NCBI RefSeq assembly: GCF_001899645.1
Contig: NZ_MKVV01000040.1
Span: 1,901-65,900 of the forward strand
DNA: 64,000 nucleotides
Direction: 5' to 3'
DNA from: Pseudonocardia sp. 73-21
Lineage (GTDB): Bacteria > Actinomycetota > Actinomycetes > Mycobacteriales > Pseudonocardiaceae
The position numbers were made by a program, and so were the translations under genes. Below the pieces are notes generated by a model. That model was not told the origin of the DNA. It did not search any database and saw nothing but the letters and a program-made list of their open reading frames with translations. This document shows, piece after piece, positions 29,960-64,000 of this stretch (position 1 is the first letter of the stretch; each line of letters starts with the position of its first letter).

Positions 29960-30604
29960 GTGAGCGCCGCACCGGCCGAGCCCCCGACGTCCCCGGTCCG
30001 CACCCGGCGGGCCCGCGGCGAGGCCGGCGCCCGGCGCCCGGTCTACGACGCGTCGTCGCTGCTCGCCGTGGCCGTGGCCGAGTTCAACACCCGCGGCTAC
30101 GACGCCACCAGCATGGAGGACCTCTCCCGCGCGGCCGGCATCACGAAGTCGTCGTTCTACCACCACGTCAGCGGCAAGGAGGAGCTGCTCAAGGCCGCGC
30201 TCGAGCGCGCGCTGGACGGCCTGTTCGGCATCCTCGAGGAACCGGCGGCGCAGGACGGCCCGGCCCTGCTGCGGCTCCAGCACATCATCCGCCGCCAGGT
30301 CGAGGTCCTGACCTCGGAGCTGCCCTACGTCACGCTGCTGCTGCGCGTGCGCGGCAACACCGAGACCGAGCGGTGGGCGCTGGCCCGCCGCCGCGCGTTC
30401 GACGCGTCGATCGCCTCGCTGGTGGCCGACGCCGTGGCCGACGGCGAGGTCCGGGCAGGAGTCGAACCGTCGCTGGCCGCCCGTCTGCTCTCGGGCACGG
30501 TCAACTCGATCATCGAGTGGTACCGGCCCGGCCGCCCCGGCGCGGACGACCTGCCCGACGAGATCGTCCGGATCGTGTCCGTGGGCATCATCCCGCCGTC
30601 CTGA
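29960..30604 (+). CDS. paaR: TetR-family regulator of phenylacetate genes (PaaR-like)
   Basis: A 214-aa TetR protein. The DNA-binding domain includes YDATSMEDLSRAAGITKSSF with the helix-turn-helix, then YHHVSGKEELLKAAL. The C-terminal ligand domain is all-helical. A GTG start is used; the site upstream is weak. It is encoded between the hydratase gene and paaA, and two copies of the same 17-bp operator flank it. Actinobacterial PaaR proteins are released by phenylacetyl-CoA; that ligand is inferred here. Confidence 0.85.
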   Translation: MSAAPAEPPTSPVRTRRARGEAGARRPVYDASSLLAVAVAEFNTRGYDATSMEDLSRAAGITKSSFYHHVSGKEELLKAALERALDGLFGILEEPAAQDGPALLRLQHIIRRQVEVLTSELPYVTLLLRVRGNTETERWALARRRAFDASIASLVADAVADGEVRAGVEPSLAARLLSGTVNSIIEWYRPGRPGADDLPDEIVRIVSVGIIPPS

Positions 30605-30658
30605 GCAGATCCCGGTCGGCCGTGGTTGCGCCCGGCCGGGCAGTGCGTCATCATCAGA

Positions 30659-30675
30659 CGAACGAACATTCGGTT
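30659..30675 (+). promoter_or_regulatory. Operator candidate upstream of paaA
   Basis: CGAACGAACATTCGGTT, containing the palindrome CGAACATTCG, lies 14 nt before the paaA ATG, just upstream of the GGAGGAG ribosome site. It matches the site at 29049-29065 in 14 of 17 positions. A repressor bound here would block the paaABCDE transcript. Confidence 0.7.
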
Positions 30676-30688
30676 ACGGAGGAGTCCC

Positions 30689-31666
30689 ATGACGGTGACC
30701 GAGGACCGAACCGGTCCTGAGCTCGACCTGGAAGCCGGTTTCGACCGGACGATCGGGGCCGACCAGCGCGTGGAGCCGCGGGACTGGATGCCCGAGGCCT
30801 ACCGCAAGACGCTGATCCGCCAGATCGCCCAGCACGCGCACTCGGAGATCATCGGCATGCAGCCGGAGGGCAACTGGATCCTCCGTGCCCCGTCACTGCG
30901 CCGCAAGGCGATCCTGCTCGCGAAGGTGCAGGACGAGGCCGGCCACGGCATGTACCTCTACGCCGCGGCCGAGACGCTCGGCGTCGACCGTGAGGAGCTC
31001 ACCGAGAAGCTGATCTCCTCGAAGCAGAAGTACTCCTCGATCTTCAACTACCCCACGCTGAGCTACGCCGACATCGGCGTCATCGGCTGGCTCGTCGACG
31101 GTGCGGCCATCTGCAACCAGGTGCCGCTGTGCCGCTGCTCCTACGGCCCGTACGCGCGGGCGATGGTCCGCATCTGCAAGGAGGAGTCGTTCCACCAGCG
31201 TCAGGGCTTCGAGCTGCTGCTGGCGATGGTGAACGGCACCGACGCGCAGAAGGCGATGGTGCAGGAGTCGGTCGACCGCTGGTGGTGGCCGTCGCTGATG
31301 ATGTTCGGCCCGCCCGACGACGACTCCCCCAACTCCGCGCAGTCGATGGCCTGGGGGATCAAGCGCCACACCAACGACGAGCTGCGCCAGCGCTTCGTCG
31401 ACATGTCCGTGCCGCAGGCCGCGGCGCTGGGGGTCACGCTGCCCGATCCCGAACTGGTCTGGAACGAGGACCGGAAGTCCCACGACTACGGCGAGCCCGA
31501 CTGGGCCGAGTTCAAGGCCGTCATCGCGGGCTCCGGGCCGGCCAACGCCCAGCGCGTCGCCCACCGCCGCCGCGCCCACGAGAACGGCGCCTGGGTGCGC
31601 GAGGCCGCACAGGCGTACGCCGACAAGCAGGCGGCCCGCGCGCGGGAGCAGGAGGTGCCGGCATGA
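30689..31666 (+). CDS. paaA: Phenylacetyl-CoA 1,2-epoxidase subunit PaaA (catalytic)
   Basis: The diiron catalytic subunit of the multicomponent epoxidase that converts phenylacetyl-CoA to its ring-1,2-epoxide using O2. The 325-aa protein carries the four-helix-bundle ligands in [20 protein letters not shown] and [20 protein letters not shown] (two ExxH pairs). Other conserved regions are [13 protein letters not shown] and [15 protein letters not shown]. The ATG follows GGAGGAG. The stop overlaps paaB (ATGA). Confidence 0.97.
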
Positions 31667-32028
31667 GCGAGGAGGTCACCGCCGAAGGCGGGCACGGCGC
31701 CGTGCCGACCACCGGCGTCGAGACCGGGTTGGGTGAGAAGCCCTCCCGGCGCACCTGGCCGCTCTACGAGGTGTTCGTGCGCGGCAAGCGCGGCCTCAAC
31801 CACGTGCACGTCGGGTCGCTGCACGCCGCCGACGACGAGATGGCCCTGCACAACGCCCGCGACGTCTACACGCGCCGCAACGAGGGCGTGAGCATCTGGG
31901 TGGTCCGCGCCGACGCGATCACCGCGTCGAGCCCGGCGGAGAAGGACCCGTTCTTCGCACCGGCCGGTGACAAGGTCTACCGCCACCCCACCTTCTACGC
32001 GATCCCGGACGAGGTGCCGCACCTGTGA
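31663..32028 (+). CDS. paaB: Phenylacetyl-CoA epoxidase subunit PaaB
   Basis: A 121-aa small structural subunit of the epoxidase complex. After a polar 30-residue lead it has [20 protein letters not shown] and [20 protein letters not shown], the PaaB signature, ending with [19 protein letters not shown]. Its ATG overlaps the paaA stop and its stop overlaps the paaC start, so subunits are translated together. Confidence 0.97.
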
Positions 32029-32960
32029 ACGTCCACCACACCGAGGTCGAGGGGCACGCTGTGACGGACACCGATGGGACCAACGCCTACCAGTCGCTGT
32101 CGGAGACCACCGGCCACGACGACCCGCGCTGGGCGTTCGGCACCGGCATCGTCGAGGAGGCCGGTGCGGAGATCACCTCACCGGTACCCGACGGCGTCGA
32201 CCCGGCCGACCTCGCCGCCTACTGCCTGATGCTCGGCGACGACGCGCTGGTCTACAGCCACCGCCTGTCGGAATGGGTCAGCAACGCCCCGGAGCTGGAG
32301 GAGGAGGTCGCGCTGGCCAACACCGCGCTCGACCTCCTCGGCCAGGCCCGCGTGCTGCTCGCCCGCTCGGCCCACCTGACCGGCGGTGACGAGGACTCGC
32401 TGGCCTTCCTGCGCACCGACGCGCAGTTCCGCAACGTCGGCCTCGCCGAGCTCTCCGACGACCTCGACTTCGCCCGCGCCGTCGGCCGGATGCTGATCTT
32501 CTCGACCTGGCGCCTCGCGCTGCTCGACCGGCTCGTCGGCTCGGCCGACCCGGTGATCGCCGCGGTGGCGGCCAAGGGCGTCAAGGAGCTGACCTACCAC
32601 CGCGACTACGCGGCCCGCTGGACGCTGCGCCTGGGCGACGGCACCGACGAGTCGCACGCACGGATGCAGGCGGCGCTGGACGCGCTGTGGCCCTACGTCG
32701 GGGAGCTGTTCCGCACCTCCGACGAGGAGCGGCGGCTGGTCGAGGCCGGTGTGGCAGTGGATCCGGCGCTGACGCGCGAGGAGGTCGACGCGGTGCTCGA
32801 CCAGGTCATCACGAAGGCCACGCTGACGCGGCCCGACAAGCCGGCCATCGGCACGATCGGCGGGCGCAGCGGGCGCCAGGGCGTGCACACCGAGCACCTC
32901 GGACACGCGCTCGCGGAGATGCAGAGCCTGGCCCGCCAGCACCCGGGCACGACGTGGTGA
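32025..32960 (+). CDS. paaC: Phenylacetyl-CoA epoxidase subunit PaaC
   Basis: A 311-aa ferritin-like subunit that pairs with PaaA and lacks its own diiron site. Recognisable segments are DLAAYCLMLGDDALVYSHRL, LANTALDLLGQARVLLARSA, RNVGLAELSDDLDFARAVGR and KGVKELTYHRDYAARWTLRL. The GTG start overlaps the paaB stop (GTGA). An internal GTG near codon 13 would give a product without the first dozen residues and cannot be excluded. Confidence 0.96.
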   Translation: MNVHHTEVEGHAVTDTDGTNAYQSLSETTGHDDPRWAFGTGIVEEAGAEITSPVPDGVDPADLAAYCLMLGDDALVYSHRLSEWVSNAPELEEEVALANTALDLLGQARVLLARSAHLTGGDEDSLAFLRTDAQFRNVGLAELSDDLDFARAVGRMLIFSTWRLALLDRLVGSADPVIAAVAAKGVKELTYHRDYAARWTLRLGDGTDESHARMQAALDALWPYVGELFRTSDEERRLVEAGVAVDPALTREEVDAVLDQVITKATLTRPDKPAIGTIGGRSGRQGVHTEHLGHALAEMQSLARQHPGTTW

Positions 32961-33469
32961 CCGACATGGTGATCGACGTGGCGACCGCGCGCGAGGTCGT
33001 CGCCGGGGTCGTCGACCCGGAGATGCCGATGCTCACCCTCGACGACCTGGGGGTCGTGCGCGGCGTCGACGTCGAGGGCGACGCGGTGCTCGTCACGATC
33101 ACACCGACCTACTCGGGGTGCCCCGCGATCGAGGAGATGCGCCACGACCTGCGCGCGTCGCTGACCCGCGCCGGGTTCGCCCGCGTGGAGGTCCGCACCG
33201 TCCTCTCCCCCGCCTGGAGCACCGACTGGATCAGCGACGACGGCCGCCGCAAGCTCGCCGAGGCCGGCATCGCGCCCCCCGGCCGGGCGGCACCGCGGGT
33301 CGCCGGCCCCGTCCCGCTGACGCTCACCCCGCCGTCGGCCGCGGTGCGCTGCCCGCACTGCGGCGCGCCCGCCACCGACGAGCTGTCCCGCTTCGGGCCC
33401 ACGGCGTGCACGGCCCTGCGCCGCTGCCCGTCGTGCCGGGAGCCCTTCGAGCACATGAAGGAGATCTGA
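32957..33469 (+). CDS. paaD: PaaD, epoxidase assembly / Fe-S maturation protein
   Basis: A 170-aa protein. Residues 10-100 form a DUF59/MIP18 domain (VVDPEMPMLTLDDLGVVRGV, TPTYSGCPAIEEMRHDL with the reactive cysteine). The C-terminus is a four-cysteine zinc ribbon (RCPHCGAP and RRCPSCREPFEHMK). PaaD is needed for epoxidase activity, probably for delivering Fe-S to PaaE. GTG 32957 overlaps the paaC stop; ATG 32966 is the alternative. Confidence 0.95.
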   Translation: MTDMVIDVATAREVVAGVVDPEMPMLTLDDLGVVRGVDVEGDAVLVTITPTYSGCPAIEEMRHDLRASLTRAGFARVEVRTVLSPAWSTDWISDDGRRKLAEAGIAPPGRAAPRVAGPVPLTLTPPSAAVRCPHCGAPATDELSRFGPTACTALRRCPSCREPFEHMKEI

Positions 33470-34614
33470 TGACGGCCGCCACCGAGGTCGGCACCTCGGA
33501 CATCACCTCGGACATCACCTCGGACATCACCTCGGACATCACCGAGCCGCGCACCGGCGGGTTCCACCCGCTGCGGGTCGCGTCCGTCGAGCGCCTCTGC
33601 GACGACGCGGTCGCCGTGACCTTCGACGTCCCGGAGTCGCTGAAGCAGGCCTACGCCTTCAGCCCCGGCCAGTACCTGACGCTGCGCACGGTCACCGACG
33701 ACGGCGAGGAGCGCCGCTCGTACTCGATCTGCGCGCCGTCGGGCGCGGCCCCGCGGGTCGGGGTCCGGCGGGTGGCGGGCGGGCTGTTCTCGGAGTGGCT
33801 GGTGGACCGGCTGGAGGCGGGCGACGAGATCGAGGTCGGCCCGCCCGCCGGCTCGTTCACCCCGCAGCTGGAGGCGGGCACCCACCACGGGCTGATCGCG
33901 GCGGGCTCGGGCATCACCCCCGTGCTGTCCATCGCCGCGTCGCTGCTGGCCGCGCACGACGACACGCACGTCACCCTGATCTACGGCAACCGCCGCACCG
34001 ACACGGTCATGTTCACCGAGGAGATCGCCGACCTCAAGAACGCCCACGGCCCGCGCCTGCACCTGCTCAACGTGCTCTCGCGCGAGCCCACCGAGGCCGA
34101 CATCTTCAACGGCCGCCTCGACGCCGACCGGATGCGGACCCTGCTCGGCGCGCTCGTCGACGTCGAGGACACCGACCACTGGTGGCTGTGCGGGCCGCTC
34201 GGCATGACCGAGGACGCCGTCACGGTACTCACCGAGCTCGGCGTGGACCGCAAGCGGGTGCACCGCGAGCTGTTCTACGTCGACGAGCCCCCGCCCGAGC
34301 TGCACCGCGCCGAGGACGACGACGCACCCGACGGCGACGGCAGCGAGGTGACGATCGTGCTCAACGGCCGGTCCACCCAGCTGACCCTCCCCCGCACCGT
34401 CCCGGTGCTCGACGCCGCGCAGAAGGTGCGCGGCGACCTCCCGTTCGCCTGCAAGGGCGGGGTCTGCGGCACCTGCCGGGCGAAGGTCACCGACGGCGAC
34501 GTCACCATGCGCCGCAACTTCGCCCTCGAGGACGACGAGGTCGCGGCCGGGTTCGTGCTGACCTGCCAGACGCTTCCGGTCTCCGACCGGGTCGTCATCG
34601 ACTTCGACGTCTGA
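33469..34614 (+). CDS. paaE: PaaE, epoxidase reductase (FNR + [2Fe-2S] ferredoxin)
   Basis: A 381-aa electron-transfer subunit moving electrons from NAD(P)H to PaaA. The flavin domain has ERRSYSICAPSG, the NAD(P) domain GLIAAGSGITPVLSIAASLL and WWLCGPLGMTED, and the ferredoxin domain the ligands in ACKGGVCGTCRAKVTDGD plus a final LTCQTL. The start overlaps the paaD stop by one base (TGATG). The N-terminus carries four exact SDI(T) repeats from a 12-bp tandem repeat, an unusual addition before the FNR domain. Confidence 0.97.
   Translation: MTAATEVGTSDITSDITSDITSDITEPRTGGFHPLRVASVERLCDDAVAVTFDVPESLKQAYAFSPGQYLTLRTVTDDGEERRSYSICAPSGAAPRVGVRRVAGGLFSEWLVDRLEAGDEIEVGPPAGSFTPQLEAGTHHGLIAAGSGITPVLSIAASLLAAHDDTHVTLIYGNRRTDTVMFTEEIADLKNAHGPRLHLLNVLSREPTEADIFNGRLDADRMRTLLGALVDVEDTDHWWLCGPLGMTEDAVTVLTELGVDRKRVHRELFYVDEPPPELHRAEDDDAPDGDGSEVTIVLNGRSTQLTLPRTVPVLDAAQKVRGDLPFACKGGVCGTCRAKVTDGDVTMRRNFALEDDEVAAGFVLTCQTLPVSDRVVIDFDV
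33493..33540 (+). repeat. 12-bp in-frame tandem repeat, four copies
   Basis: ACCTCGGACATC is repeated exactly four times near the start of paaE, encoding TSDI repeats. A copy-number change would keep the frame. Confidence 0.95.
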
Positions 34615-35333: not shown

Positions 35334-35756
35334 TCAGCCGGCGTCGGCCCACAGCTCCAGGGCGATGTTGTCCGGGTCGCGGAACTCCAGCAGGCAGCCC
35401 AGCCCGATGTCCTTCACGCCGGCGTGGGCGACACCCAGCTCGTCGAGGCGCGCGGCCGCGGCGTCGAGGTCCGCGCGCGAGGGCAGCTTGAAGGCCACGT
35501 GGTCGAGGCCGGCGCGGTTCTCGGTGAAGGTGTCGGCGGCGGGGGCTACCGGCCGGAGCCCGAAGAACCCGCCGGGCACCTCGTAGACGACGCCGCCGAA
35601 GAGCCACCACAGCTCCTCGCGGGTGGCGTCGTCGGCGTCGGCGGGAAGCTCGAACGCGACGGGCAGGCCGAGGACGTCGTCGTAGAACCGGCGCGACCGC
35701 GCGATGTCGGTGACGGTGAGCCGGACGTGGGAGAAGCCGGTGACGGGAAGCGACAT
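35334..35756 (-). CDS. VOC-superfamily (glyoxalase-like) protein
   Basis: A 140-aa single-module-pair VOC protein: GFSHVRLTVTDIARSRRFYD opens module one with its histidine, LDHVAFKLPSRADLDAAAAR opens module two, and PDNIALELWAD ends with the metal-ligand glutamate. Start 35756 matches the family; upstream ATGs at 35774 and 35792 would only add a polar lead. It lies on the same strand as the diol/2-hydroxyacid operon, about 100 nt after its last gene, and may be its final member. Substrate unknown. Confidence 0.8.
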   Translation of the reverse strand: MSLPVTGFSHVRLTVTDIARSRRFYDDVLGLPVAFELPADADDATREELWWLFGGVVYEVPGGFFGLRPVAPAADTFTENRAGLDHVAFKLPSRADLDAAAARLDELGVAHAGVKDIGLGCLLEFRDPDNIALELWADAG

Positions 35757-35827
35757 GATCGAAGTCTCTCCCATCGACGCGCCGGCGCACACCCACCACT
35801 TGGTGAGGGTGCGCCGGCGCGGCGATG

Positions 35828-35870
35828 CTCAGAGGGCCGGGGGCTCAGAGGGCCGGCGGCTCAGAGGGCA
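35828..35870. repeat. Triplicated 15-16-bp segment containing the GMC stop codon
   Basis: GCTCAGAGGGC is repeated three times at about 15-16-bp spacing. On the reverse strand each copy reads GCCCTCTGA, that is, the last codons and stop of the GMC gene, followed by two further copies of the same stop-containing segment downstream. Confidence 0.85.
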
Positions 35871-37564
35871 GGGGCCAGGGCGTTGGACGGGGTGGTCGAC
35901 TGCGCGACGATCTCGGCGAAGTTCTGCTTGATGTACTCCGCCGCGCGGGTCGACATGGCGCCGATGGTGCTGGTCGGGTTGACCGCGCCACCGGTGGTCA
36001 TCGCGGCCCCGTCGGCGATGAACAGGTTCGGCACCTCCCACGCCTGGTTGTAGCGGTTGACCGTCGAGTCCTCCGGCGTGTTGCCCATCCGCGCGGTGCC
36101 CATCAGATGCCAGCCCGGGGGCGGCGAGAGGACGCCGGTGTGGTTGGTCTCGCGGGCCCCGAGGGCGTCGGCGACCTCGGTGATGCGCTCGACGCCGAAG
36201 TCGCACAGGCGCCGGTCGTTCTCCGAGACGTTGAACTCGACGTGGGCGGCGGGCAGCCCGCTGGAGTCGGTGACGCTGCGGTCGAGCGTGACCCGGTTCT
36301 CCCTGATCGGCAGGTCCTCGCCGAACATGAACACCAGCAGGTGGTAGGCGAAGTGGGAGTCGAAGAACGCCCGGTGGTCCTGGCCCCACGGCGCGACCGC
36401 GGCGGTGTGCGTGCCCATCGCGGTGTACGCCGAGCCGAAGCTGCGCCCGACCTGCATCATCAGGCCGTTGACGAACCCCCGGCTGGTGTCGGTGTGGTAG
36501 AACTCCTGGCAGGCCAGGGGCGCGCCGAAGGCCCCCTTGAAGCCCTCGATCGGGTCGTCGAACCAGCAGTCCACGAACGCGAACGAGTGGTGCATCAGGT
36601 GCGTGCCCACCAGGCCGTTGGCGTTGGCCAGCCCGTCGGGGTGACCCTTCTGCTCCGACATCAGCAGCAGCCGCGGCGTGCCGATCCCGCTCGCGGCCAC
36701 CACCACGATCTTGGCGCCGACGAAGTGGCTCTCGCCGGTGATCCGGTCGATGTACTCCGCGCCCGTCGCCTTGCCGCCCTTCGCCTCGACGCGGGAGACG
36801 CGGGCGTTGATGCGCAGGTCCAGGCCGTTCGCCAGCGCCTTGGGCAGCAGGGCGACGTCCATCCCGGCGAGCGAGCCGCGGGGGCAGCCGCACAGGCAGT
36901 TGCCGCAGTTGTTGCAGGGCAGCCGGCCGTCCTTGGCCTCGGTGAGGATGCCGTTGTCGCTGGGCCACCAGTGCCAGCCGAGCTTGTCCAGGCCGCTGGC
37001 GAACTTCATCCCGAGCTTGCCCGGGGGCACCGGCTGCTGGCGGGGCGCGCCGGGGCGGTCGGGGTAGGACGGGTCGCCGTGCACGCCGGAGATGCCGACC
37101 TCGGCGTCGTTGATGTCGTAGTACGGCGCGAGCTCCTCGTAGCTGATCGGCCAGTCGATGTTGCCGGCCATGTTGCCCAGCTCGGTGCCCTTGCGGAAGT
37201 CGATGGGCTTCAGCCGCGGCCAGTGCGCGGCGTAGCGCAGGGTGCTGCCGCCGACCGCGTTCATCAGGTAGGGCGTGGTGAACCCGGTGACCGGGTAGTC
37301 CTCGGGGCCCTGGCGCACGTTGGGGTCATACGACCAGCCCCGGTTGCGCTCGATGTCGAACTCCTGGTGGTGGTGCGCGTACTCGGTGGGGTGGATCCAG
37401 TCGCCCTGCTCCAGCATGGTGACCTTGAACCCGGCCGCGCACAGACGGTTGGCCATGGCCGAGCCGCTCATGCCCGAGCCGATGATCAGGACGTCGGCCT
37501 CTTCGCCGCGCGTGCCGTTGGTGCCGTTGCGGCCGGTGTGGCCGTTCGTGTTCCACCCGCTCAT
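35861..37564 (-). CDS. GMC-family FAD-dependent alcohol oxidoreductase
   Basis: A 567-aa glucose-methanol-choline oxidoreductase of the gluconate-2-dehydrogenase/fructose-dehydrogenase branch. The FAD motif VLIIGSGMSGSAMANRLCAA is at residues 25-44. A cysteine-rich PCNNCGNCLCGCPRGS segment near residue 220 may hold an Fe-S cluster. The catalytic region shows PPPGWHLMGTARMGNTPEDS and NPTSTIGAMSTRAAEYI. The neighbouring subunit-3-like protein is its expected partner. Context suggests oxidation of a 1,2-diol's primary alcohol to a 2-hydroxyaldehyde, comparable to MpdB of Mycobacterium austroafricanum, but this is inferred. Confidence 0.9.
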   Translation of the reverse strand: MSGWNTNGHTGRNGTNGTRGEEADVLIIGSGMSGSAMANRLCAAGFKVTMLEQGDWIHPTEYAHHHQEFDIERNRGWSYDPNVRQGPEDYPVTGFTTPYLMNAVGGSTLRYAAHWPRLKPIDFRKGTELGNMAGNIDWPISYEELAPYYDINDAEVGISGVHGDPSYPDRPGAPRQQPVPPGKLGMKFASGLDKLGWHWWPSDNGILTEAKDGRLPCNNCGNCLCGCPRGSLAGMDVALLPKALANGLDLRINARVSRVEAKGGKATGAEYIDRITGESHFVGAKIVVVAASGIGTPRLLLMSEQKGHPDGLANANGLVGTHLMHHSFAFVDCWFDDPIEGFKGAFGAPLACQEFYHTDTSRGFVNGLMMQVGRSFGSAYTAMGTHTAAVAPWGQDHRAFFDSHFAYHLLVFMFGEDLPIRENRVTLDRSVTDSSGLPAAHVEFNVSENDRRLCDFGVERITEVADALGARETNHTGVLSPPPGWHLMGTARMGNTPEDSTVNRYNQAWEVPNLFIADGAAMTTGGAVNPTSTIGAMSTRAAEYIKQNFAEIVAQSTTPSNALAPAL

Positions 37565-37638
37565 CGCACTGCCTCGCTTCGCTCGGTCGACGCTGCGCGA
37601 CGGCGCTGTGCCGACGATTCGCTCGCACGCTCGCTCAT
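37561..37638 (-). CDS. 25-aa bridging ORF between subunit-3-like and GMC genes
   Basis: The spacer between the two genes is open from an ATG overlapping the upstream stop (ATGA) to a TGA overlapping the GMC start (ATGA). The product would be Ser/Glu/Arg-rich (ending STERSEAVR). It probably serves to carry ribosomes across the spacer rather than as a functional peptide. The DNA contains CCTCGCTTCGCTCGG (37572-37586), repeated at 41260-41274. Confidence 0.4.
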   Translation of the reverse strand: MSERASESSAQRRRAASTERSEAVR

Positions 37639-38285
37639 GACTGCACCCCGTACTCGTCGGCGATGTCGGTGGGCATGGAGACGAAGCGGACGTCCTCGGT
37701 GGCGATGAACGTGCCCCGCTTCGGGAACTCCTTGTCCGGCCACGGCTCGACGTCGTAGCCGTAGGGCAGCGGCGGGCCGTGGTAGTCGCGGCCGGCCGGC
37801 AGGTTCTTCCGGATCGCCGCGGTGACCTCGGCGCGGGCGTAGTAGCCGTAGTAGACCAGCGACCGCAGCTGCTCGAAGAACGTGGCGTCGTCCTCCGCGC
37901 CCTTCTCCAGCGCCGTCAGCGCCGCGATCTGCTGCGACGGCACGGCGTCGAGGAACGCCGGGCCGAGCCGGTTGAGCTGGTCCTTGAACGGGTGCTCGGC
38001 CGCGAGCGGGTAGTACTTCACCTCGTGGCTCGCCGGCGTCACGTAGCGGGCGACGAACTCGACGATCTCCACCTCGCTCGGCGCGGGGAAGCCGCGGCCC
38101 GGCGGGATGATCAGGTCGGCCGCGGTGTCGATCACCGCGCGCTGCTGCTCCGTGAAGCGCACGGGGGGCGAGTAGCCGCCCACCCGCGCCTTCTGCGCCG
38201 CCCAGCCCGCACGCGGGTCGGGTTCGGTCGCCTTCGTGCCCATCGGTTCGGGGGCGTGCAGGACGCCGTTGCTCGTGGTGGTCAT
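37635..38285 (-). CDS. Gluconate 2-dehydrogenase subunit 3 family protein
   Basis: A 216-aa protein of the small gamma-subunit family that accompanies membrane or soluble GMC dehydrogenases. Conserved features are VIDTAADLIIPPGRGFPAPS, FLDAVPSQQIAALTALEKGA and LVYYGYYARAEVTAAI. Unlike many family members it has no Tat signal, so the pair is probably cytoplasmic. It lies between the aldehyde dehydrogenase and GMC genes, an order reminiscent of the mpdC-orf-mpdB arrangement. Confidence 0.88.
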   Translation of the reverse strand: MTTTSNGVLHAPEPMGTKATEPDPRAGWAAQKARVGGYSPPVRFTEQQRAVIDTAADLIIPPGRGFPAPSEVEIVEFVARYVTPASHEVKYYPLAAEHPFKDQLNRLGPAFLDAVPSQQIAALTALEKGAEDDATFFEQLRSLVYYGYYARAEVTAAIRKNLPAGRDYHGPPLPYGYDVEPWPDKEFPKRGTFIATEDVRFVSMPTDIADEYGVQS

Positions 38286-38316
38286 CGTTGCCCTCCTCGT
38301 GGTGGTGGCGTGCGGG

Positions 38317-39840
38317 TCAGAGCGGGGCGCCTGCCCAGTCGGCGCTCGCCCGCGGGGAGTCGTCGAGGTTGACGCTGACGTGCTTGACCTGGGTGTAGCT
38401 CGCGATCGACTCCAGGCCCTCCTCCCGGCCGGTGCCGCTCTGCTTGTAACCGCCGTGCGGGGCCATCGGCAGCTCGCCGAACCAGTCGTTGACCATGACG
38501 CCGCCGACCTGGAGCCGCCGTGCCGTGGACAGCGCGCGGGTGATGTCGGAGCACCAGATCGCCGCGAACAGGCCGAAGTCCGAGTCGTTGGCCGCGGCCA
38601 CCAGCTCGTCCTCGTCGGACCACGTGAACACCGACAGCACCGGGCCGAAGATCTCCTCGCGGGCGATGCGGTCGCTCGGTGAGACGTCGGTGAACACGGT
38701 GGGCTCGACGAAGTAGCCGTCGACGTCGGTGCCGGCCGGGCGCCCGCCGCCGTAGAACAGCGTCGCCTCCCGCTTGCCGATCTCGATGTAGGAGCGCACG
38801 CGGTCGAACTGCTTCTTCGACACCAGCGGGCCCATCTGGACGCCCTCGTCGAACGGGTCGCCGATCCGCGCCACCCGCAGCCGCTCCACGAGCCGGGCGA
38901 GGAACTCGTCGGCGATGTCGCGGTGCAGGAACAGGCGGGTGCCGGCCACGCAGACCTGGCCGGCGTGCGAGCAGAAGCCCTGGACCGCGCCCTCGACGGC
39001 GTCGTCGAGGCGGGCGTCGGGGAACACGATGGTCGGGCTCTTGCCGCCGAGCTCCAGGTTGACCTGGGCGATGTGCTCGGCGCCCAGCTTCGCCACCGTC
39101 TTCCCGGTCTCGGTGGACCCGGTGAAGGTGATGCCCATGACGTCCGGGTGCGCGGCGAGCGCGGCCCCGGCCTCGGCGCCGTAGCCGGTGACGACGTTGA
39201 ACACCCCGTCCGGGAACCCGGCCTCGGCCACCAGCTCGGCGTACTTCAACGCGGAGAGCGAGGTGTCCTCCGCCGGCTTGACGACGCAGGTGTTGCCCAG
39301 CGCCAGCGCCGGGGCGGTGGAGCGCACGAGGATCAGCAGCGGGTAGTTCCACGGCACGATGTGCGCGGTCACGCCCAGCGGCTCCAGCAGGGTGAACGCG
39401 AGCTTGTTGCCGGGCACCTCGATGGTGCGCCCGCCGACCTTGTCGGCCAGGCCCGCCCAGTACTCCAGCCACAGCGGGATCGCCCCGACCAGCTCGCGGG
39501 CCTTGTCCAGGTAGTGCCCGGAGTCCAGCGCCTCGAGCTGCGCGAGCTCCTCGGCGTGCTCGGTGACCAGACCGGCGAGCGTGCGCAGCAGGCCCGCTCG
39601 GGTGATCGCGTCGGTGAACTGCCACTCGACGGCGACGCGCTTCGCGGCGGCAACCGCGCGGTCGACGTCGGAGGCGTCGGCGCGGGGCACGGCGGCGATG
39701 GTGCGGCCGGTGGCCGGGTCGACGGTGGCGAACGTGACGCCGGCGCTCGCCGGGCCCCACCGTCCGTCGATGAACATCTGCGCGTGGTCGACGCGGCGGG
39801 TGGCCTGGTCGAAGGTCATCGGTTGCTCGATGGTCGTCAT
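38317..39840 (-). CDS. Aldehyde dehydrogenase family protein
   Basis: A 507-aa NAD(P)-dependent aldehyde dehydrogenase. Motifs: HIVPWNYPLLILVRSTAPAL, ITFTGSTETGKTVAKLG (cofactor loop), the catalytic Glu in LELGGKSPTIVFPD, the nucleophile in SHAGQVCVAGTRLFLHRD, and EEIFGPVLSVFTW. The ATG overlaps the CoA-ligase stop. In this operon it would oxidise the GMC product, a 2-hydroxyaldehyde, to the 2-hydroxyacid (MpdC-like role); this is inference from order and family. Confidence 0.93.
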   Translation of the reverse strand: MTTIEQPMTFDQATRRVDHAQMFIDGRWGPASAGVTFATVDPATGRTIAAVPRADASDVDRAVAAAKRVAVEWQFTDAITRAGLLRTLAGLVTEHAEELAQLEALDSGHYLDKARELVGAIPLWLEYWAGLADKVGGRTIEVPGNKLAFTLLEPLGVTAHIVPWNYPLLILVRSTAPALALGNTCVVKPAEDTSLSALKYAELVAEAGFPDGVFNVVTGYGAEAGAALAAHPDVMGITFTGSTETGKTVAKLGAEHIAQVNLELGGKSPTIVFPDARLDDAVEGAVQGFCSHAGQVCVAGTRLFLHRDIADEFLARLVERLRVARIGDPFDEGVQMGPLVSKKQFDRVRSYIEIGKREATLFYGGGRPAGTDVDGYFVEPTVFTDVSPSDRIAREEIFGPVLSVFTWSDEDELVAAANDSDFGLFAAIWCSDITRALSTARRLQVGGVMVNDWFGELPMAPHGGYKQSGTGREEGLESIASYTQVKHVSVNLDDSPRASADWAGAPL

Positions 39841-41252
39841 CGGCCCTCCAGGGGTCGGGAACGGGTGTGGGCGCGTTCGTCGATCACGCGGCGGGCCTTG
39901 TGCTCGGCGCGTTCGAAGGTGTTCGGGTCGACCGACTCGAAGGTGACGCGCACCCCGAGCAGGGACTGCAGGCCCTCGGCGCCGGCGCGTTCGAACTCGG
40001 CGCGGGCGCCGTCGCGCCGGTCGGTCTCGGCGCGGACCACCATCTCGTCCATCGAGCCGGTGCGGGTGACCACGATCCGGTGCTCGCCCGCGTAGCCGGG
40101 CACGCCGCGCAGGAAGTTGTCGACCTCGGTCGGGTACACGTTCTCGCCGCGGATGTGGATCATGTCGTCGATCCGCCCGTACACGCCGCGGGGCAGCTTC
40201 GGGTAGGTGCGGCCGCAGCCGTTGGTCTCCATCGTCCAGCGCGTGAGGTCGTTGGACGCCAGCCGGATCATCGGCTGCGACGTGCGTTCGAGATGGGTGT
40301 AGACCGGGGTGCCCTCGCCGCCGTAGGGCACGGTGCGGAACGTGTCCGGGTCGCACACCTCGTGCCAGACGATGTCCTGCCACAGCAGCATCCCGTCAGG
40401 GCTGCCCTCGGTGGCCGACGCCGACATGAACGGCGTCATCTCGGCCATCGTCCCGCAGTCGACGACGCGGGCCCCGAACGCCGAGGAGATCGCGTCGCGC
40501 ACCGCGGGCACCGACGCCCCGGGCTCGCCGGAGAAGAACATGATGTCGATGCCGAACTCGCGCGGGTCGATCTTCTCCTGCTCGGCCACCTCGGCCAGGC
40601 GCAGCGCGTAGGACGGCGTGGCGTAGAAGGCGCGCGGCTTCGTGCGGGCGAGCCAGGTGACGGCGCGGGCGGTCATGCCCTTCGCCCCGGCCCCGAACGG
40701 CAGCACCCGGCAGCCCAGCCGCTCGGCGCCGCTCATCGCGCCCCACGAGCCGAGGTACAGGCTGAACAGCGCCGCGACGAACACGGTGTCGCCGGGCCGC
40801 ACGCCCATCCCCCACAGGATGCGGGCATGGTTGTCGGCGATCACCTGCCAGTCGTCGCGGCCCAGCGCGAACGCCGTCGGCATGCCGGTGGTGCCCGACG
40901 TACCGTGGATGTGGTGGATCTGCGACTCGTCGACGCAGAGGTAGTCGCCGAAAGGCGGCGCGTCGTTCTGGGACTGCCGCATCTCCGCCTTGGTCACGAC
41001 CGGCACCTGCTCGAACGCCTCGAACGAGGTGATGTCGGCGGGTTTGACGTCGGCCGCGTCCCACTTGCGCCGGTAGAACGGCGCGGTGGCGTAGGCGTAC
41101 TCCATCACCTCGCGCAGGCGCACGAGCACCGCGGCGTCGCGCTCCTCGGGGTCCATGGTCTCGCGGTGCGGGAACCAGTAGGGCGAGTCGGGGTCGGGAA
41201 GGTAGCTCTGGTCGTACCGGGCGGGGAACCGCCACTCCTCCATGTCAGGCAC
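39837..41252 (-). CDS. Adenylate-forming acyl-CoA ligase (PaaK-like)
   Basis: A 471-aa relative of phenylacetate-CoA ligase. It has the P-loop HIHGTSGTTGMPTAFALGRD, IMFFSGEPGASVPAVRDAI, VDCGTMAEMTPFMSASA and the hinge GRIDDMIHIRGENVYPTEVD. It differs clearly from the paaK copy at 24316-25665, so a different acid is expected. Start GTG 41252 is favoured because GAGGAG lies five bases upstream; GTG 41258 abuts that site. Between a 2-hydroxyacyl-CoA-lyase-like gene and an aldehyde dehydrogenase, it probably activates a 2-hydroxyacid to its CoA ester. Confidence 0.85.
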   Translation of the reverse strand: MPDMEEWRFPARYDQSYLPDPDSPYWFPHRETMDPEERDAAVLVRLREVMEYAYATAPFYRRKWDAADVKPADITSFEAFEQVPVVTKAEMRQSQNDAPPFGDYLCVDESQIHHIHGTSGTTGMPTAFALGRDDWQVIADNHARILWGMGVRPGDTVFVAALFSLYLGSWGAMSGAERLGCRVLPFGAGAKGMTARAVTWLARTKPRAFYATPSYALRLAEVAEQEKIDPREFGIDIMFFSGEPGASVPAVRDAISSAFGARVVDCGTMAEMTPFMSASATEGSPDGMLLWQDIVWHEVCDPDTFRTVPYGGEGTPVYTHLERTSQPMIRLASNDLTRWTMETNGCGRTYPKLPRGVYGRIDDMIHIRGENVYPTEVDNFLRGVPGYAGEHRIVVTRTGSMDEMVVRAETDRRDGARAEFERAGAEGLQSLLGVRVTFESVDPNTFERAEHKARRVIDERAHTRSRPLEGR

Positions 41253-41280
41253 AGTCACTCCTCGCTTCGCTCGGCCGTGC

Positions 41281-41312
41281 GCGGAAATCGGTGCCCCGGC
41301 ACCGATTTCCGC
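41281..41312. repeat. Perfect 15-bp-stem hairpin between lyase and CoA-ligase genes
   Basis: GCGGAAATCGGTGCC and its exact complement are separated by 2 nt, directly after the lyase stop codon and 29 nt before the ligase start. It could attenuate read-through or stabilise the upstream message. A 23-aa ORF (41245-41316) runs through it, overlapping both flanking genes. Confidence 0.8.
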
Positions 41313-43028
41313 TCACGAGCGCCTCCGCTCGATCTCGGCGTCGTTCCAGGGCGTCAGGGCCTGGTACTCGGGCACGAACCCGAGGCCCTTGCCGGCGTCC
41401 GGCGACGGTGCGTCCTGGGTGGTCACCACGTCGACCACGGCGGGAGCGTTGGCCAGCGCCCGCTTCAGCGCCCCCTCCAGCTCGGCCGGGTCCGTGACGC
41501 GTTCGCCGTGCGCGCCGAGGCTCCGCGCCAGCGCGGCGTAGTCGGAGTCGGCGAGCTCGGTGCCCACGACCAGGCCGTAGTTCTCCTGCTGGTCGTAACG
41601 CTCGATGTTCCAGGCGCGGTTGTTGGACACGACCACGACGACCTTCGCGCCGTGCCGCGCGGCGGTGTCGATGTCGGTGGCCGTGATGCCGAACGCGCCG
41701 TCGCCGGTGACGGCCACGACGGGCCGCTCCGGGTAGGCCAGCGCCGCGGCGATGCCGAACGGCGTCGCGACCCCGAGGCAGCCGAACGCGCCGGCGTCGA
41801 GGTAGCGGGCGGCCCGGGTGATGCCGAGGCGGGCGAAGCTCAGCAGGTCGCCACCGTCGGCGATCATCACGGCGTCGTCGAGGGCGAGGGCGTCCAGGGC
41901 GGCGAAGATGCGGTTGGGGTGCATGCGGCCGTCGTCGCCCGCGGGGGCGTCGGCCATGGCCGTGCGGTAGTCGGCGGAGCGCTTGCGGTGCTTGGTGCGC
42001 AGCTCGTCGCGCCAGGCTGTGTCGGGGGTGTGCCCGTCCAGCGCGGCCGCGAGCGCGGTGAGCGTGGCCGCGGGATCGGCGAGGATCTCCACCTCGCCGC
42101 GGCGGTTGTCGATCAGCTCGCTCGCGGTGTCGGCGATCCGCACCACCTTCGCGTTCCTGAACACGGCCGGGGAGCCGAAGGCGAGCTGGAAGTCCAGCTG
42201 GCGCCCGACGGTGATCAGCAGGTCGGTGTCGCGCATGACCGCCGAGCGCGCCGAGCCGACCCCGGCGGGGTGGTCGTCGGGCACCAGGCCGCGGCTCTCC
42301 TGCGTGTCGAGGTAGGCGGCGCCGCTCGCGTCGAGGAAGCGGACGAGCTCCGCACCGTCCCCGACCCGCGCACCCCGGCCGCTGATCACGGCGGGCCGCT
42401 TCGCCGCGCGGACCAGCTCGGCGACGGCCGCCACGTCGTCGGGGTGGGGCTGCGGGCGGCGGCGGGGCTTGGCCCGCAGGTGCTCCACGGTGACCAGCGC
42501 CGGCGGCACCTGCTCGCGCAGCACGTCGGTGGGGATCTCGACGTAGACGGGGCCGGGCTCGCCGCGGTCGCCCGCGGCCCGGGCCCACGCCTCGTCCATC
42601 TCGCGCAGCACCTGGTCGGCGACGCGCAGCGTGCGCGAGAGCCGGGTGACCGGCGCGAGGATCGCGGTGTGCGGGATGTCCTGCAGCGGGCCCATGTTGG
42701 CCTGCGCCCGCGGCGGGCAACCGCCGAACACGAGCACCGGGATCCGGCTGATCGACGCGTTGGCCACCGCGGTCACGGTGTTGGTGACACCGGGGCCCGC
42801 CGTGACGAGCGCGACGCCGGTCTCCCCCGTCAGCTCGGAGTGGGCGTGGGCCATGTGCACCGCGGAGCCCTCGTCGCGGACGTCGACGATGCGGACGCCG
42901 AGCCGCGCGAGCTGGTCCCAGACGGGCTGGATGTGGCCGCCCTGCAGACCGAAGACCCGGTCCACCCCGTGGTCGCGCAGGAAGCGCGCGACCAGCTCCG
43001 CGACGACGACGGGAGCCTGTTCCGACAT
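41313..43028 (-). CDS. Thiamine-diphosphate-dependent lyase/decarboxylase, 2-hydroxyacyl-CoA-lyase-like
   Basis: A 571-aa three-domain ThDP enzyme. The PYR domain has [15 protein letters not shown] and [14 protein letters not shown] with the catalytic Glu near residue 48. The middle domain has [17 protein letters not shown]. The PP domain binds ThDP-Mg through [20 protein letters not shown] and [18 protein letters not shown] (about residues 440-480). ATG 43028 follows GAGGAGGG. Generic annotation would be acetolactate synthase. The neighbours (CoA ligase, aldehyde and alcohol dehydrogenases) fit better with a 2-hydroxyacyl-CoA lyase releasing formyl-CoA; benzoylformate-type decarboxylation is the main alternative. 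Confidence 0.85.
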
Positions 43029-43054
43029 CCGATCCCTCCTCGGTGAGTGATCCA

Positions 43055-43102
43055 CACCACGTGGTGGCGCTCACCCGAGGGTGCCGCATTCTGAATTCAG
43101 AA
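43055..43102. promoter_or_regulatory. Two perfect palindromes in the GntR/lyase divergent region
   Basis: CACCACGTGGTG (43055-43066) and TTCTGAATTCAGAA (43089-43102) are perfect 12- and 14-bp palindromes, 22 bp apart, in the 126-bp gap between the divergent lyase operon and the GntR gene. The second is AT-rich and abuts a TTGACT hexamer on the reverse strand, suiting control of the lyase operon. Half-site spacing is typical for FCD-type GntR regulators. Confidence 0.65.
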
Positions 43103-43154
43103 GTCAACAGCTGGGGAGGAGTCGACCTCCTGCGGATCGCGATAGCGTGTTCGG

Positions 43155-43817
43155 ATGACCGCGCTCCCGATGCCGCCGTCGCGGACCGAGCAGGTCTACG
43201 AGGCGATCGTCGACGACATCTGCACCGGACGGCTCACCCCGGGCACCCCGCTGCGCCAGGAACTGCTCGCCGCGCGCTTCAACGTGTCGCGCCAGCCGGT
43301 GCAGCAGGCGCTCCTGCTGCTGCGCAACCAGGGGCTCGTGCGCGAGTTCGGCCGCCGCGGGCTGGAGGTGGCGCCGCTGGGGCGGGAGTTCGTCAGCCAC
43401 CTCTACGACCTGCGGGCCCTCCTCGACGGGCACGCCGCCCTGCTGGCCGCGCAGCGCCGCACCGACGCGTGGCTGGCCGAGGCCGCCGAGATCGTGGCGG
43501 CCGGGCAGCAGGCGTTCACCGAGCGCGCCTTCGCGCGCATGATCACCGCGGACGTCGACTTCCACCGCAGCGTCGTCGAGGCCGCCGGCAACCCCCTGCT
43601 CACCGAGAGCACCAGCGTGCTGTGGCGCAACGTGCAGCGCGTGATGGGCGAGGTACTGCTCCAGGGCGGCTCCCCCGCCTGGGTCTGGGAGGACCACGCC
43701 GCCATCCTCGACGCCGTGAGCCGCCGCGACGGCCCGCGCGCCGAGGAGCTCGCCCGCCGCCACGCCCAGCACGGCGAGCAGCTCATCCTCGACGCGATGC
43801 CGACCGACCGGACCTGA
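43155..43817 (+). CDS. GntR-family (FCD subfamily) transcriptional regulator
   Basis: A 220-aa regulator. The winged helix spans TEQVYEAIVDDICTGRLTPG to FNVSRQPVQQALLLLRNQGL, and the FCD effector domain has its metal-ligand positions in LRALLDGHAALLAAQRR, DVDFHRSVVEAAGN and WEDHAAILDAVSRRD. It diverges from the lyase operon, which is its likely target. The effector is probably a carboxylate such as the 2-hydroxyacid, by family analogy. Confidence 0.92.
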   Translation: MTALPMPPSRTEQVYEAIVDDICTGRLTPGTPLRQELLAARFNVSRQPVQQALLLLRNQGLVREFGRRGLEVAPLGREFVSHLYDLRALLDGHAALLAAQRRTDAWLAEAAEIVAAGQQAFTERAFARMITADVDFHRSVVEAAGNPLLTESTSVLWRNVQRVMGEVLLQGGSPAWVWEDHAAILDAVSRRDGPRAEELARRHAQHGEQLILDAMPTDRT

Positions 43818-61230: not shown

Positions 61231-64000
61231 ATGCGAACCTGGATCGACCATTGGCCCGTTGTCCGGCAGTTGACCGGCGACGACCCGCTCGGCCGCGGCA
61301 CCTCAGCGCGCCACGACGGGGGATCGGTGGACAAGCGGGCCCGCACGCTCGACGCCGACACCGTCACGAAGTCGATCTGCCCGTTCTGCGCCGTGGGGTG
61401 CGGACAGCAGATCTTCTCGAGGGACGGGAAGGTCACCCACGTCGAGGGCGACCCGGACTCGCCGATCAGCCGCGGCAAGCTCTGCCCCAAGGGCTCCTCG
61501 ACGCTGTCGCTGCTCACCGCGCCCACCCGGCAGACGCAGGTCCGCTACCGGCGTCCGCACGGCACCGAGTGGGAGGACCTCGACCTCGACACGGCCGTCG
61601 ACATGATCGTCGATCGCGTGCTGGCCACCCGCGAGAGCACCTGGCAGGACGTCGACGACCAGGGCCGGCACCTGCGCCGCACGATGGGGATAGCGAGCCT
61701 CGGAGGGGCGACCCTCGACAACGAGGAGAACTACCTCATGAAGAAGCTCTACACCGCGATGGGTGCGGTGCAGATCGAGAACCAGGCCCGTATTTGACAC
61801 AGCTCCACCGTTCCCGGTCTGGGAACCTCGTTCGGTCGCGGCGGCGCCACCAACTACCAGCAGGATCTGGTCAACTCCGACTGCATCGTCATCCAGGGCT
61901 CCAACATGGCCGAGGCGCACCCGGTCGGCTTCCAGTGGGTGATGGAGGCCAAGAAGCGCGGCGCCACGGTGATCCACGTCGACCCGCGGTTCACGCGCAC
62001 GTCCGCGGTGGCCGACCTGCACGTCCCGATCCGGGCCGGCACGGACATCGCGTTCCTCGGCGGGCTGATCCACCACGTGCTGGAGACGGGCACGTACTTC
62101 GAGGACTACGTGCGCGCCTACACCAACGCGCCGATGATCCTGCGCGAGGACTTCCGCGACACCGAGGACCTCGACGGGCTGTTCTCCGGTTTCGATCCCG
62201 CGACCGCCACCTACGACGTCACGTCGTGGGAGTACGCCGACGACGCCGTCGAGCCGGCCGTCGGCCCGCGCGACGACAGGCCGGTGGCCGAGCACGAGCG
62301 CGGCCAGATCGCCGGCTCCGGCGGGGCGCCGATGAGCAAGGAACCCCGGCGTGACGACACGCTGCAGCATCCGCGGTGTGTCTTCCAGGTGCTCCGGCGG
62401 CACTTCTCCCGCTACACCCCGGAGATGGTGCACGAGGTCTGCGGGATCGACCCGGAGACGTTCGCGCAGGTCGCCGACGCGCTGACGCGCAACTCGGGCC
62501 GCGAGCGCACCAGCGCGTTCGCCTACGCGGTCGGCTGGACCCACCACACCGTCGGCGTGCAGTACATCCGGGCGGCGTCGATCCTGCAGATGCTGCTGGG
62601 CAACATCGGGCGCCCGGGCGGCGGCATCCTGGCGCTGCGCGGGCACGCCAGCATCCAGGGCTCCACCGACATCCCGACGCTGTTCGACATGCTGCCCGGC
62701 TACATCCCGATGCCGCATGCCCACCGCGAGCAGGACCTGGACACCTTCATCGCCGCCAACACCGGCAACAAGGGCTTCTGGGGCAACATGGACACCTACG
62801 TCGTCAGCCTGCTGAAGTCCTGGTTCGGCGACGCGGCCACGCCGGAGAACGACTTCTGCTTCGACCTGCTGCCCCGGCTGACCGGCGACCACTCCAGCTT
62901 CCGGACGGTGATGGCGCAGGCCCGCGGCGAGGTGCCCGGCTACTTCGTCATCGGCGAGAACCCGGCCACCGGTACCGCGAACGCCCGCCAGCAGCGCCAG
63001 GGCCTCGCGACGCTGGAGTGGCTCATCGTCCGCGACCTGAACATGATCGAGACGGCGACGTTCTGGAAGGACGGGCCGGAGATCGAGACCGGCGAGATGC
63101 GCACCGAGGACATCGGCACCGAGGTGTTCTTCCTGCCCGCCGCCGCCCACAGCGAGAAGGACGGCACCTTCACCAACACCCAGCGGCTGCTGCAGTGGCA
63201 CCACAAGGCCGTGGAGCCACCGGGCGACTGCCGCAGCGACCTGTGGTTCTACTACGAGATCGGGAAGCGGATCAAGGCGCGGCTGGCCGGCTCGACCGAC
63301 CCGAAGGACCGGGCGCTGCAGGCCCTGACCTGGGACTACCCCGTCGACGACACGGGCGAACCGAGTGCCGACGCCGTGCTGCGCGAGATCAACGGCACCG
63401 GCCCCGACGACGCGACGCTCGGGGGCTACACCGAGCTGAAGGCCGACGGCTCCACGCGGTGCGGCTGCTGGATCTACTCCGGCGTCTACGCCGACGAGAC
63501 CAACCAGTCCCAGCGGCGCAAGCCGGGCCGGGACCAGGACCTCGCCGCCCACGAGTGGGGCTGGGCGTGGCCCGCGAACCGCCGCGTGCTCTACAACCGC
63601 GCCTCCGCCGATCCCGACGGGAAGCCGTGGAGCGAGCGCAAGAAGCTCGTCTGGTGGGACGCGGTCGGGAAGACGTGGACCGGCGGCGACGTCCCCGACT
63701 TCCCGGCCACCACCGCCCCGGACTACCGGCCGCCCGAGGGGGCGCGGGCCGCCGAGGCCATCGGCGGCGACGAGCCGTTCGTCATGCAGGCCGACGGCCG
63801 GGCCTGGCTGCACGCCCCCGCCGGACTGCTGGACGGGCCGATGCCGGCGCACTACGAGCCGCAGGAGTCGCCGGTGCCCAACGCGCTGCACCCCCGGCAA
63901 CGCGCCAACCCGGCCCGCCAGGAGTTCGATCGCCCGGACAACCGCTACCACCCGGCTCCCGGCATGCCCGGCGCGGACGTCTTCCCGTTCGTGTTCACCA
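61231..64000 (+). CDS. Formate dehydrogenase alpha subunit, selenocysteine-containing (3' end outside window)
   Basis: Oxidises formate to CO2 at a molybdenum or tungsten bis-MGD centre. The start MRTWIDHWPVVRQL fits actinobacterial FDH; GTG 61225 is the alternative. Cys50, Cys53, Cys57 and Cys85 (ICPFCAVGC, GKLCPKGS) bind a [4Fe-4S] cluster. At codon 189, after ENQARI, a TGA stands where the family has Cys or selenocysteine. The frame continues with HSSTVPGLGTSFGRGGATN and stays open to the window end, with FDH sequence throughout (GNIGRPGGGILALRGHASIQ). A SECIS-like hairpin follows the TGA. A simple gene caller would report a 189-codon fragment. Beta and other subunits presumably lie to the right. 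Confidence 0.92.
61795..61797 (+). other. UGA codon proposed to encode selenocysteine
   Basis: In-frame TGA at the exact active-site position occupied by Cys or Sec in molybdenum formate dehydrogenases (context NQARI-U-HSSTVPGLGTS). All family features resume directly after it in the same frame. Confidence 0.88.
61810..61826 (+). promoter_or_regulatory. SECIS-like hairpin for selenocysteine insertion
   Basis: GTTCCC (61810-61815), loop GGTCT (61816-61820) and GGGAAC (61821-61826) make a perfect 6-bp stem. The loop sequence GGTCT and its distance of 18 nt from the TGA equal those of the E. coli fdhF SECIS, and T-T at positions 14-15 after the TGA is also shared. It would be bound by SelB. Confidence 0.85.

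Follow-up and report, generated by a model that had tools for sequence, protein, structure and literature searches.

Does the gene cluster at positions 35334-43817 of a 64-kb stretch of Pseudonocardia sp. 73-21 DNA (here called the window, which always means the whole stretch) encode a complete route from a branched 1,2-diol to a ketone and formyl-CoA, and how would such a route be controlled? An earlier note had proposed this route from genes for a thiamine diphosphate (ThDP)-dependent protein, a ligase, an aldehyde dehydrogenase, a small subunit, a GMC protein and an FCD-type GntR regulator, and we found all of these genes intact at that place. The first five form a minus-strand operon that runs from 43028 down to 35861 in the order lyase, ligase, aldehyde dehydrogenase, small subunit and GMC protein, and the FCD-GntR gene, which starts at 43155, is divergent from it. 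We consider it highly probable that the operon encodes a pathway built on the lyase and on 2-hydroxyisobutyrate-CoA ligase (HCL) for 2-methylpropane-1,2-diol (MPD) or a close C4-C5 branched 1,2-diol. The pathway itself is known; what look new are the apparently mosaic make-up of the operon and its predicted operator, the palindrome TTCTGAATTCAGAA.

A cluster with the same order of genes (GntR / lyase-ligase-MpdC-small subunit-MpdB) was described in 2020 in Actinomycetospora chiangmaiensis (PMC7176365), in which MPD gave rise to 2-hydroxyisobutyric acid (2-HIBA), acetone and a little formate, the five cluster proteins were 23- to 39-fold more abundant on 2-HIBA than on acetone, the lyase was active after expression in E. 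coli and formate removal was selenium-dependent. The same source mentions Pseudonocardia clusters, as well as a Rhodococcus variant with a distant GMC protein replacing MpdB. The window operon has the composition of such a lyase-HCL cluster (GntR, lyase, hcl, with or without mpdC, small subunit, mpdB). It agrees with that of A. chiangmaiensis DSM 45062 in regulator, gene order, lyase (81% identity), ligase (83%) and aldehyde dehydrogenase (77%), but differs in the GMC protein (62%) and the small subunit (47%). The lyase and ligase assignments of the earlier note are supported, as is its route from diol through hydroxyacid and CoA ester to ketone and formyl-CoA. In contrast, its joining of the two halves of the pathway is not a new inference, because a study from 2020 had already published and tested the same cluster and route, including gene order, metabolites and proteome (PMC7176365), and neither the orthology with MpdB nor the fuel-ether origin that it suggested held up.

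Lyase, ligase and the proposed route

The best solved match of the ThDP protein (41313..43028, minus strand) was the 2-hydroxyacyl-CoA lyase AcHACL (7pt1; 1027 bits), with the next kind of protein at 242 bits, and its score against the NCBIfam 2-hydroxyacyl-CoA lyase model NF058623 was 1008 bits (cut-off 600), compared to 375 bits for the next family. We aligned the window's lyase with eight further proteins, one of them the A. chiangmaiensis gene product (from L016), and compared the positions named in PMC8760513. The window lyase, which is 81% identical to AcHACL, has the same residue at 13 of 13 substrate, CoA and catalytic positions (H44, T88, L127, Q128, Q255, R273, S274, R362, R417, I492, E493, D561 and K564), and its lid aligned without an internal gap and is nearly identical. 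This alignment of lid and active site, proposed as a check in the earlier note, gave an AcHACL-like protein; relative to the AcHACL structures (PDB 7pt1-7pt4, 9qz4-9qz7), the match extends over the whole length, but about 19% of residues differ and the C-terminus is 2 residues shorter in the alignment. In AcHACL, L127 and I492 are size-limiting and restrict substrates to C4-C5 acids (PMC8760513). Acetolactate synthase, oxalyl-CoA decarboxylase and benzaldehyde-lyase types were rejected on model, structure and residue evidence; by sequence, there was no sign of the clustering with benzoylformate decarboxylases or acetolactate synthases that the earlier note had named as the outcome that would tell against it. 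The likely start of the lyase is the ATG after GAGGAGG, with a GTG at 43055 as the alternative. Enzymes of this lyase family are also relevant to one-carbon chemistry.

The ligase (39837..41258, minus strand) had as its best solved match the 2-hydroxyisobutyryl-CoA synthetase 6hdw, over the whole length, at 659 bits, compared to 219 bits for phenylacetate-CoA ligase (PaaK); it is 82-86% identical to the Actinomycetospora HCLs and 34% identical to the window's own PaaK-like ligase. On these values we rejected an aromatic-acid ligase, the preference that the earlier note had seen as fatal to its proposal, and its description of the protein as PaaK-like gave way to HCL. The 6hdw synthetase presumably serves a mutase pathway, and the partner of the window ligase is the lyase instead. 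Thus, the assignment of the ThDP protein as a 2-hydroxyacyl-CoA lyase and of the ligase as HCL is supported by the sequence and residue tests, together with the published biochemistry of orthologues.

In the route we propose, the GMC flavoprotein and its small subunit would oxidize the diol to a 2-hydroxyaldehyde, and the aldehyde dehydrogenase (38317..39840, minus strand; PF00171, 553 bits), which is the MpdC counterpart and 76-81% identical to nine cluster homologues, would yield the 2-hydroxyacid. HCL would then form the CoA ester, and the lyase would cleave this to acetone (or butanone) and formyl-CoA. The formyl-CoA would be hydrolyzed and the formate oxidized by a selenocysteine formate dehydrogenase. 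The earlier note had placed a formate dehydrogenase at 61-64 kb, and an alpha subunit is indeed present there (61231..64000 and beyond the window end, plus strand; NF041513, 1686 bits, cut-off 1400); its gene contains a single in-frame TGA (61795-61797), which we take to be at the selenocysteine position. It is plausible that this enzyme is the end of the one-carbon branch, outside the operon. Just before it, at 53435-60347, lie genes for a pair of very large sensor proteins of PAS/GAF/SpoIIE-phosphatase type, of which one also has histidine kinase and receiver domains. The acetone would pass to a Mim-type monooxygenase encoded elsewhere in the genome. MimA-type fragments, 65-82% identical to an Actinomycetospora MimA-type protein, stand at the ends of contigs C12, C49 and C87, and contig C49 also carries reductase, second hydroxylase subunit, GroEL and amidohydrolase genes. 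That mimA-type sequence is cut at three contig ends suggests two or more similar acetone-monooxygenase clusters, unmerged in the assembly.

An origin of the diol from fuel ethers or tert-butyl alcohol, along the lines of the earlier note, is unsupported. The best match in the draft genome to the Rieske oxygenase encoded near the 2-hydroxyisobutyryl-CoA mutase genes of Methylibium petroleiphilum PM1 (presumably MdpJ) was 38%. PF02332 proteins occur in 11 of the 13 lyase-bearing genomes searched, and the only two in the window's own genome are both in acetone-monooxygenase-type fragments; these are absences in a draft assembly and not proof. A B12-mutase route in the same genome was also rejected, with a best match of 42% to the PM1 mutase large subunit.

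The dehydrogenase pair and an apparently mosaic operon

The GMC protein (35861..37564, minus strand; PF00732 and PF05199) and the small subunit (37635..38285, minus strand; PF13618, Gluconate_2-dh3 family) would be the large and small subunits of a presumed branched-diol dehydrogenase. The earlier note equated the GMC protein with MpdB, but neither protein of the pair is a close orthologue of the published lyase-linked MpdB and its partner, by identity or by tree. In a tree of 35 rows, from which seven second GMC copies had been removed, the 18 lyase-linked MpdB rows formed a 100/100 clade without the window protein; in a second tree, to which we added an Antarctobacter plasmid protein (62% identical to the window protein) and which omits six rows (L031, L042-L046), the window protein adjoins the MpdB clade, weakly, at 87/75.

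The best solved relatives of the GMC protein are fructose dehydrogenase and FAD glucose dehydrogenase, with which it shares the GMC fold family and a small subunit of Gluconate_2-dh3 type. By spacing and alignment, Cys217-x5-Cys223-x3-Cys227 (36884..36916, minus strand) are predicted [3Fe-4S] ligands: the spacing is that of Burkholderia cepacia glucose dehydrogenase, in which Cys212, Cys218 and Cys222 bind a [3Fe-4S] cluster (PMC6719666), and the segment aligned with the fructose dehydrogenase motif. The match to these catalytic subunits is only about 177 bits, and a cytochrome c electron-transfer subunit, unlike in those enzymes, is absent among the operon genes (the rest of the genome was not searched). 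The C-x5-C-x3-C motif is found in none of the 18 lyase-linked MpdB rows (17 distinct), including the A. chiangmaiensis MpdB, and is carried by the window protein, the other 16 rows of the 35-row set and the Antarctobacter protein. No secretion signal was evident by eye in the GMC protein or the small subunit, and no second GMC protein of the window kind was found in the genome at E <= 1e-100.

The similarity of the GMC protein to either side varies along its length. We compared it to the MpdB clade and to a group of nine GMC proteins adjoining enolase-superfamily, PfkB-kinase and KDPG-aldolase genes (L031, identical to L020, was left out). Over residues 325-420 it shares 72% identity with the MpdB clade and 58% with the comparison group; over residues 201-232 the order is reversed, with 45% and 67%, respectively. 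We infer from this pattern a similar substrate with another electron route; MpdB is listed as NAD(P)-reducing (PMC7176365). The position of the pair in the operon and residues 325-420 are suggestive of MPD oxidation, and the motif points to a changed electron hand-over at the first oxidation.

Several findings weigh against an MPD pathway that begins with this pair. The GMC protein is 61-64% identical to the lyase-linked MpdBs, compared to 85-93% among the other clusters, and the small subunit is 44-54% identical to its cluster homologues, compared to 64-86% (the upper limit of 54% probably stems from L018, where the subunit is broken in two and one of the pieces was compared). Where the MpdB clade is invariant and differs from the comparison group, the window protein agrees with MpdB at 21 positions, with the other group at 24 and with neither at 18; of the 35 positions that do not vary within the comparison group, it agrees with that group at 20 and shows an MpdB state at 5. 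To these we add that mimA is present in the genome as fragments only, at three contig ends, and that no diol-supplying enzyme was found in the draft genome. The split diagnostic positions do not settle the descent of the window GMC protein.

The six genes of the locus differ in their apparent ancestry. We compared the window to 12 Actinomycetospora clusters (G324 counted) and 5 Pseudonocardia clusters (L072, from the same record as L020, was unused). Mean identities, given as window-Actinomycetospora/window-Pseudonocardia/Actinomycetospora-Pseudonocardia, were 80/67/67 for GntR, 83/73/70 for the lyase and 84/78/76 for the ligase, and 78/78/84 for the aldehyde dehydrogenase, 47/46/75 for the small subunit and 63/64/89 for the GMC protein. 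Thus, in the other clusters none of the six proteins is as well conserved between the two genera as the GMC protein; that of the window is distant from both. The operon is apparently a mosaic, with GntR, lyase and ligase of Actinomycetospora type in a Pseudonocardia and a GMC protein and small subunit from another lineage, and it places the published C4 degradation route in one more actinobacterium. At E <= 1e-150, the lyase occurs in 6 of 62 genomes of the genus and, in a sample of 397 genomes from the order with three candidates scored in each, in at least 3; both counts include the window's own genome. An aldehyde dehydrogenase gene lies between those for ligase and small subunit in 4 of the 12 Actinomycetospora clusters; the other eight (L009, L012, L013, L014, L017, L018, L019 and L073) have none, and therefore this step must come from elsewhere in those genomes.

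A rival reading is that the lyase and the ligase act as published but that the exchanged GMC pair works on a different alcohol, for instance a polyol or a C5 diol derived from isoprene or isoamylene, in which case MPD would not be the real substrate of the operon. The foreign lineage of the pair fits this idea, as do GMC relatives of 60-62% identity that adjoin enolase-superfamily, PfkB kinase and KDPG-aldolase genes, and PMC7176365, in which isoprene and isoamylene routes are considered, reports cleavage of 2-hydroxy-2-methylbutyryl-CoA at an equal rate. However, residues 325-420 of the GMC protein are MpdB-like and the lyase keeps L127 and I492, with their C4-C5 acid limit in AcHACL, and we regard another alcohol as unlikely. 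Far less probable is an acetone-assimilating lyase that condenses acetone and formyl-CoA to 2-hydroxyisobutyryl-CoA. The reaction is reversible (PMC8760513), and homologous ThDP genes lie in or beside B12 mutase operons on plasmids of Methylibium PM1 and Natrinema, but condensation needs neither the ligase nor the two dehydrogenases of this operon, 2-HIBA induces the A. chiangmaiensis cluster, of which almost nothing is present on acetone (PMC7176365), and the genome holds no closer match to the PM1 mutase large subunit than that of 42%.

We give still less credence to an extension of the neighboring phenylacetate (paa) genes, in which the ThDP protein would be an acetolactate synthase or benzoylformate-type decarboxylase and the ligase would act on aromatic acids. 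Genes for PaaA/PaaC-type and PaaE-type proteins and the PaaK-like ligase do lie at 24316-34614, and the 34% identity between the two ligases could be cited in its favor, but model and structure scores favor the lyase and HCL by hundreds of bits and the active-site residues match AcHACL. Thus, a lyase-HCL pathway for MPD or a close branched diol remains the reading that we prefer.

A predicted operator for the GntR regulator

Between the lyase gene and that of the FCD-type GntR regulator (43155..43817, plus strand; PF00392 and PF07729), which is 76-84% identical to the regulators of the 12 Actinomycetospora clusters, lies a 14-bp perfect palindrome, TTCTGAATTCAGAA (43089..43102), that overlaps by one base the -35-like TTGACT hexamer of the lyase promoter. 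None was expected in shuffles of the window, and at one mismatch or fewer this is the only site in the 7.09-Mb genome, in which the reversed control pattern gave none. The exact palindrome precedes the lyase gene in 12 of 12 Actinomycetospora clusters (11 of 11 loci, and G324, assigned from its sequence), each of these genomes having one site, and in an Aeromicrobium metagenome-assembled genome (MAG; L022); the Pseudonocardia clusters have it at the lyase with one or two mismatches. Overall, a site with at most one mismatch was present in 19 of the 23 genomes or records searched, the other four being G001, with a two-mismatch site at the lyase, a Burkholderiales MAG (L021), a Cupriavidus plasmid and the PM1 plasmid. 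At up to two mismatches there was none in the examined stretches of PM1, Cupriavidus, Natrinema, L021 and L067. In G288, the only palindrome site is about 3 Mb from the lyase, which counts against a strict link between operator and lyase. Among the Pseudonocardia clusters, L068 (no mismatches), L070 (two) and L020/L072 (one) have a second copy, which stands before an MFS transporter gene.

Similar sites recur on the plasmid pAZKH of Azoarcus sp. KH32C, which resembles the window in its lyase (55%), in a recognition-helix segment (VSRQPVQQAL) common to the two regulators, and in formate dehydrogenase genes about 10 kb upstream. On this plasmid, a pyrroloquinoline quinone (PQQ)-dependent dehydrogenase and aldA take the place of the GMC pair, and BLAST at 1e-5 did not match the AMP-binding ligase to HCL. 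The 737,589 bases of the plasmid hold four sites, all within 12.6 kb, with none expected in that stretch. One of them precedes the ligase and lyase genes, two lie ahead of the Rieske, PQQ-dehydrogenase and aldA genes, and the fourth is in front of a TRAP transporter gene. They may mark out one regulon that comprises PQQ dehydrogenase, aldA, ligase, lyase and TRAP transporter (L082; NC_020548.1, 301601-326697). The Cupriavidus regulator has VSRSPVLKAL at the helix position, and its upstream region holds another palindrome, TGTACTCTGGATCCAGAGTACA; this co-change of helix and palindrome, albeit a single case, supports binding by the GntR protein.

Judging from these patterns, TTCTGAATTCAGAA is probably the GntR operator and FCD-GntR probably the repressor of the operon. 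Bound at the lyase promoter, it would keep the operon off until the acid or its CoA ester appears. Since the genome has one operator site, the acetone and formate genes are probably outside the regulon. The 14-mer was not found in the literature searched, a search for 2-hydroxyisobutyrate operators gave nothing on the regulator among the best eight of 1,137 papers, and the words operator, palindrome and promoter do not occur in PMC7176365. The palindrome offers a specific and cheaply testable operator for the pathway; if it is one, searches for it could locate the pathway and its transporters in further genomes, and together with a defined inducer it could be made into a sensor for 2-hydroxyisobutyrate.

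We give about even chances to a reading that joins the two themes. In it, the window would encode another form of branched-diol dehydrogenase, an MpdB-like flavoprotein that keeps a predicted [3Fe-4S] cluster, either as an older state that the lyase-linked MpdB clade lost with its electron route or as a replacement brought in with the small subunit, and a single FCD-GntR/TTCTGAATTCAGAA system would run the lyase pathways of Actinomycetospora, Pseudonocardia, Aeromicrobium and a betaproteobacterial plasmid.

Operon boundaries and homologues in other settings

Within the operon, the ligase and aldehyde dehydrogenase genes overlap by a few bases and the remaining gaps are 31-70 bases. The lyase and ligase genes are 54 bases apart, with a hairpin between them (41276..41317, minus strand; -37.2 kcal/mol for a 64-nt stretch, z -4.96). 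A strong hairpin 3' of the GMC gene (35775..35824, minus strand; -52.9 kcal/mol for an 86-nt stretch, z -4.32), which has no run of T, is probably the operon end. Because it separates them from each other, a VOC-family gene beyond the GMC gene (35334-35792), which lay within the range of the earlier note and went unmentioned there, is probably outside the operon. We rejected it as part of the pathway on this separation and on its distribution: at E <= 1e-30 it occurs in 13 of 62 genomes of the genus, the window's own included, and homologues of 65-84% identity are found in 8 of the 12 others. G037 alone among these eight also has the lyase, at a distance of about 3.8 Mb. In L020, L068, L069 and L070, a VOC gene of 30-33% identity occurs near the lyase, which we take as chance or a common chromosomal neighborhood, and the idea that the VOC gene adjoins paa genes in relatives was not borne out. 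In the window, the paa genes directly adjoin the operon, and the flanking genes are unlike those that flank other lyase clusters. Neither Rfam families (at the gathering threshold) nor tRNAs were found in the 64-kb window.

Lyase homologues also occur in other settings. In the Burkholderiales MAG (L021, 5148-13312), a homologue in two pieces (60-65% identity) lies after hydantoinase A/B-type genes and ahead of an AMP-ligase-like gene, in a neighborhood without HCL, GntR or palindrome. For Mycolicibacterium sp. ELW1, a ThDP lyase gene beside mutase genes has been reported and discussed as a minor route that the strain may have (PMC13188929). On the PM1 plasmid RPME01 (L080, 2716-13248), a 53% homologue with all key catalytic residues lies inside a run of B12-mutase, HCL and MeaB genes, a setting similar to that published for ELW1, and thus both routes may coexist. 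A plasmid of the archaeon Natrinema zhouii (L083, 8001-14463) encodes a ThDP protein that shares 43% identity with the window lyase and keeps the counterparts of Glu493 and Gln128; its gene stands in a row with those for an HCL-like ligase (48%) and methylmalonyl-CoA-mutase-family, B12-binding and MeaB proteins, a possible archaeal lyase-mutase operon.

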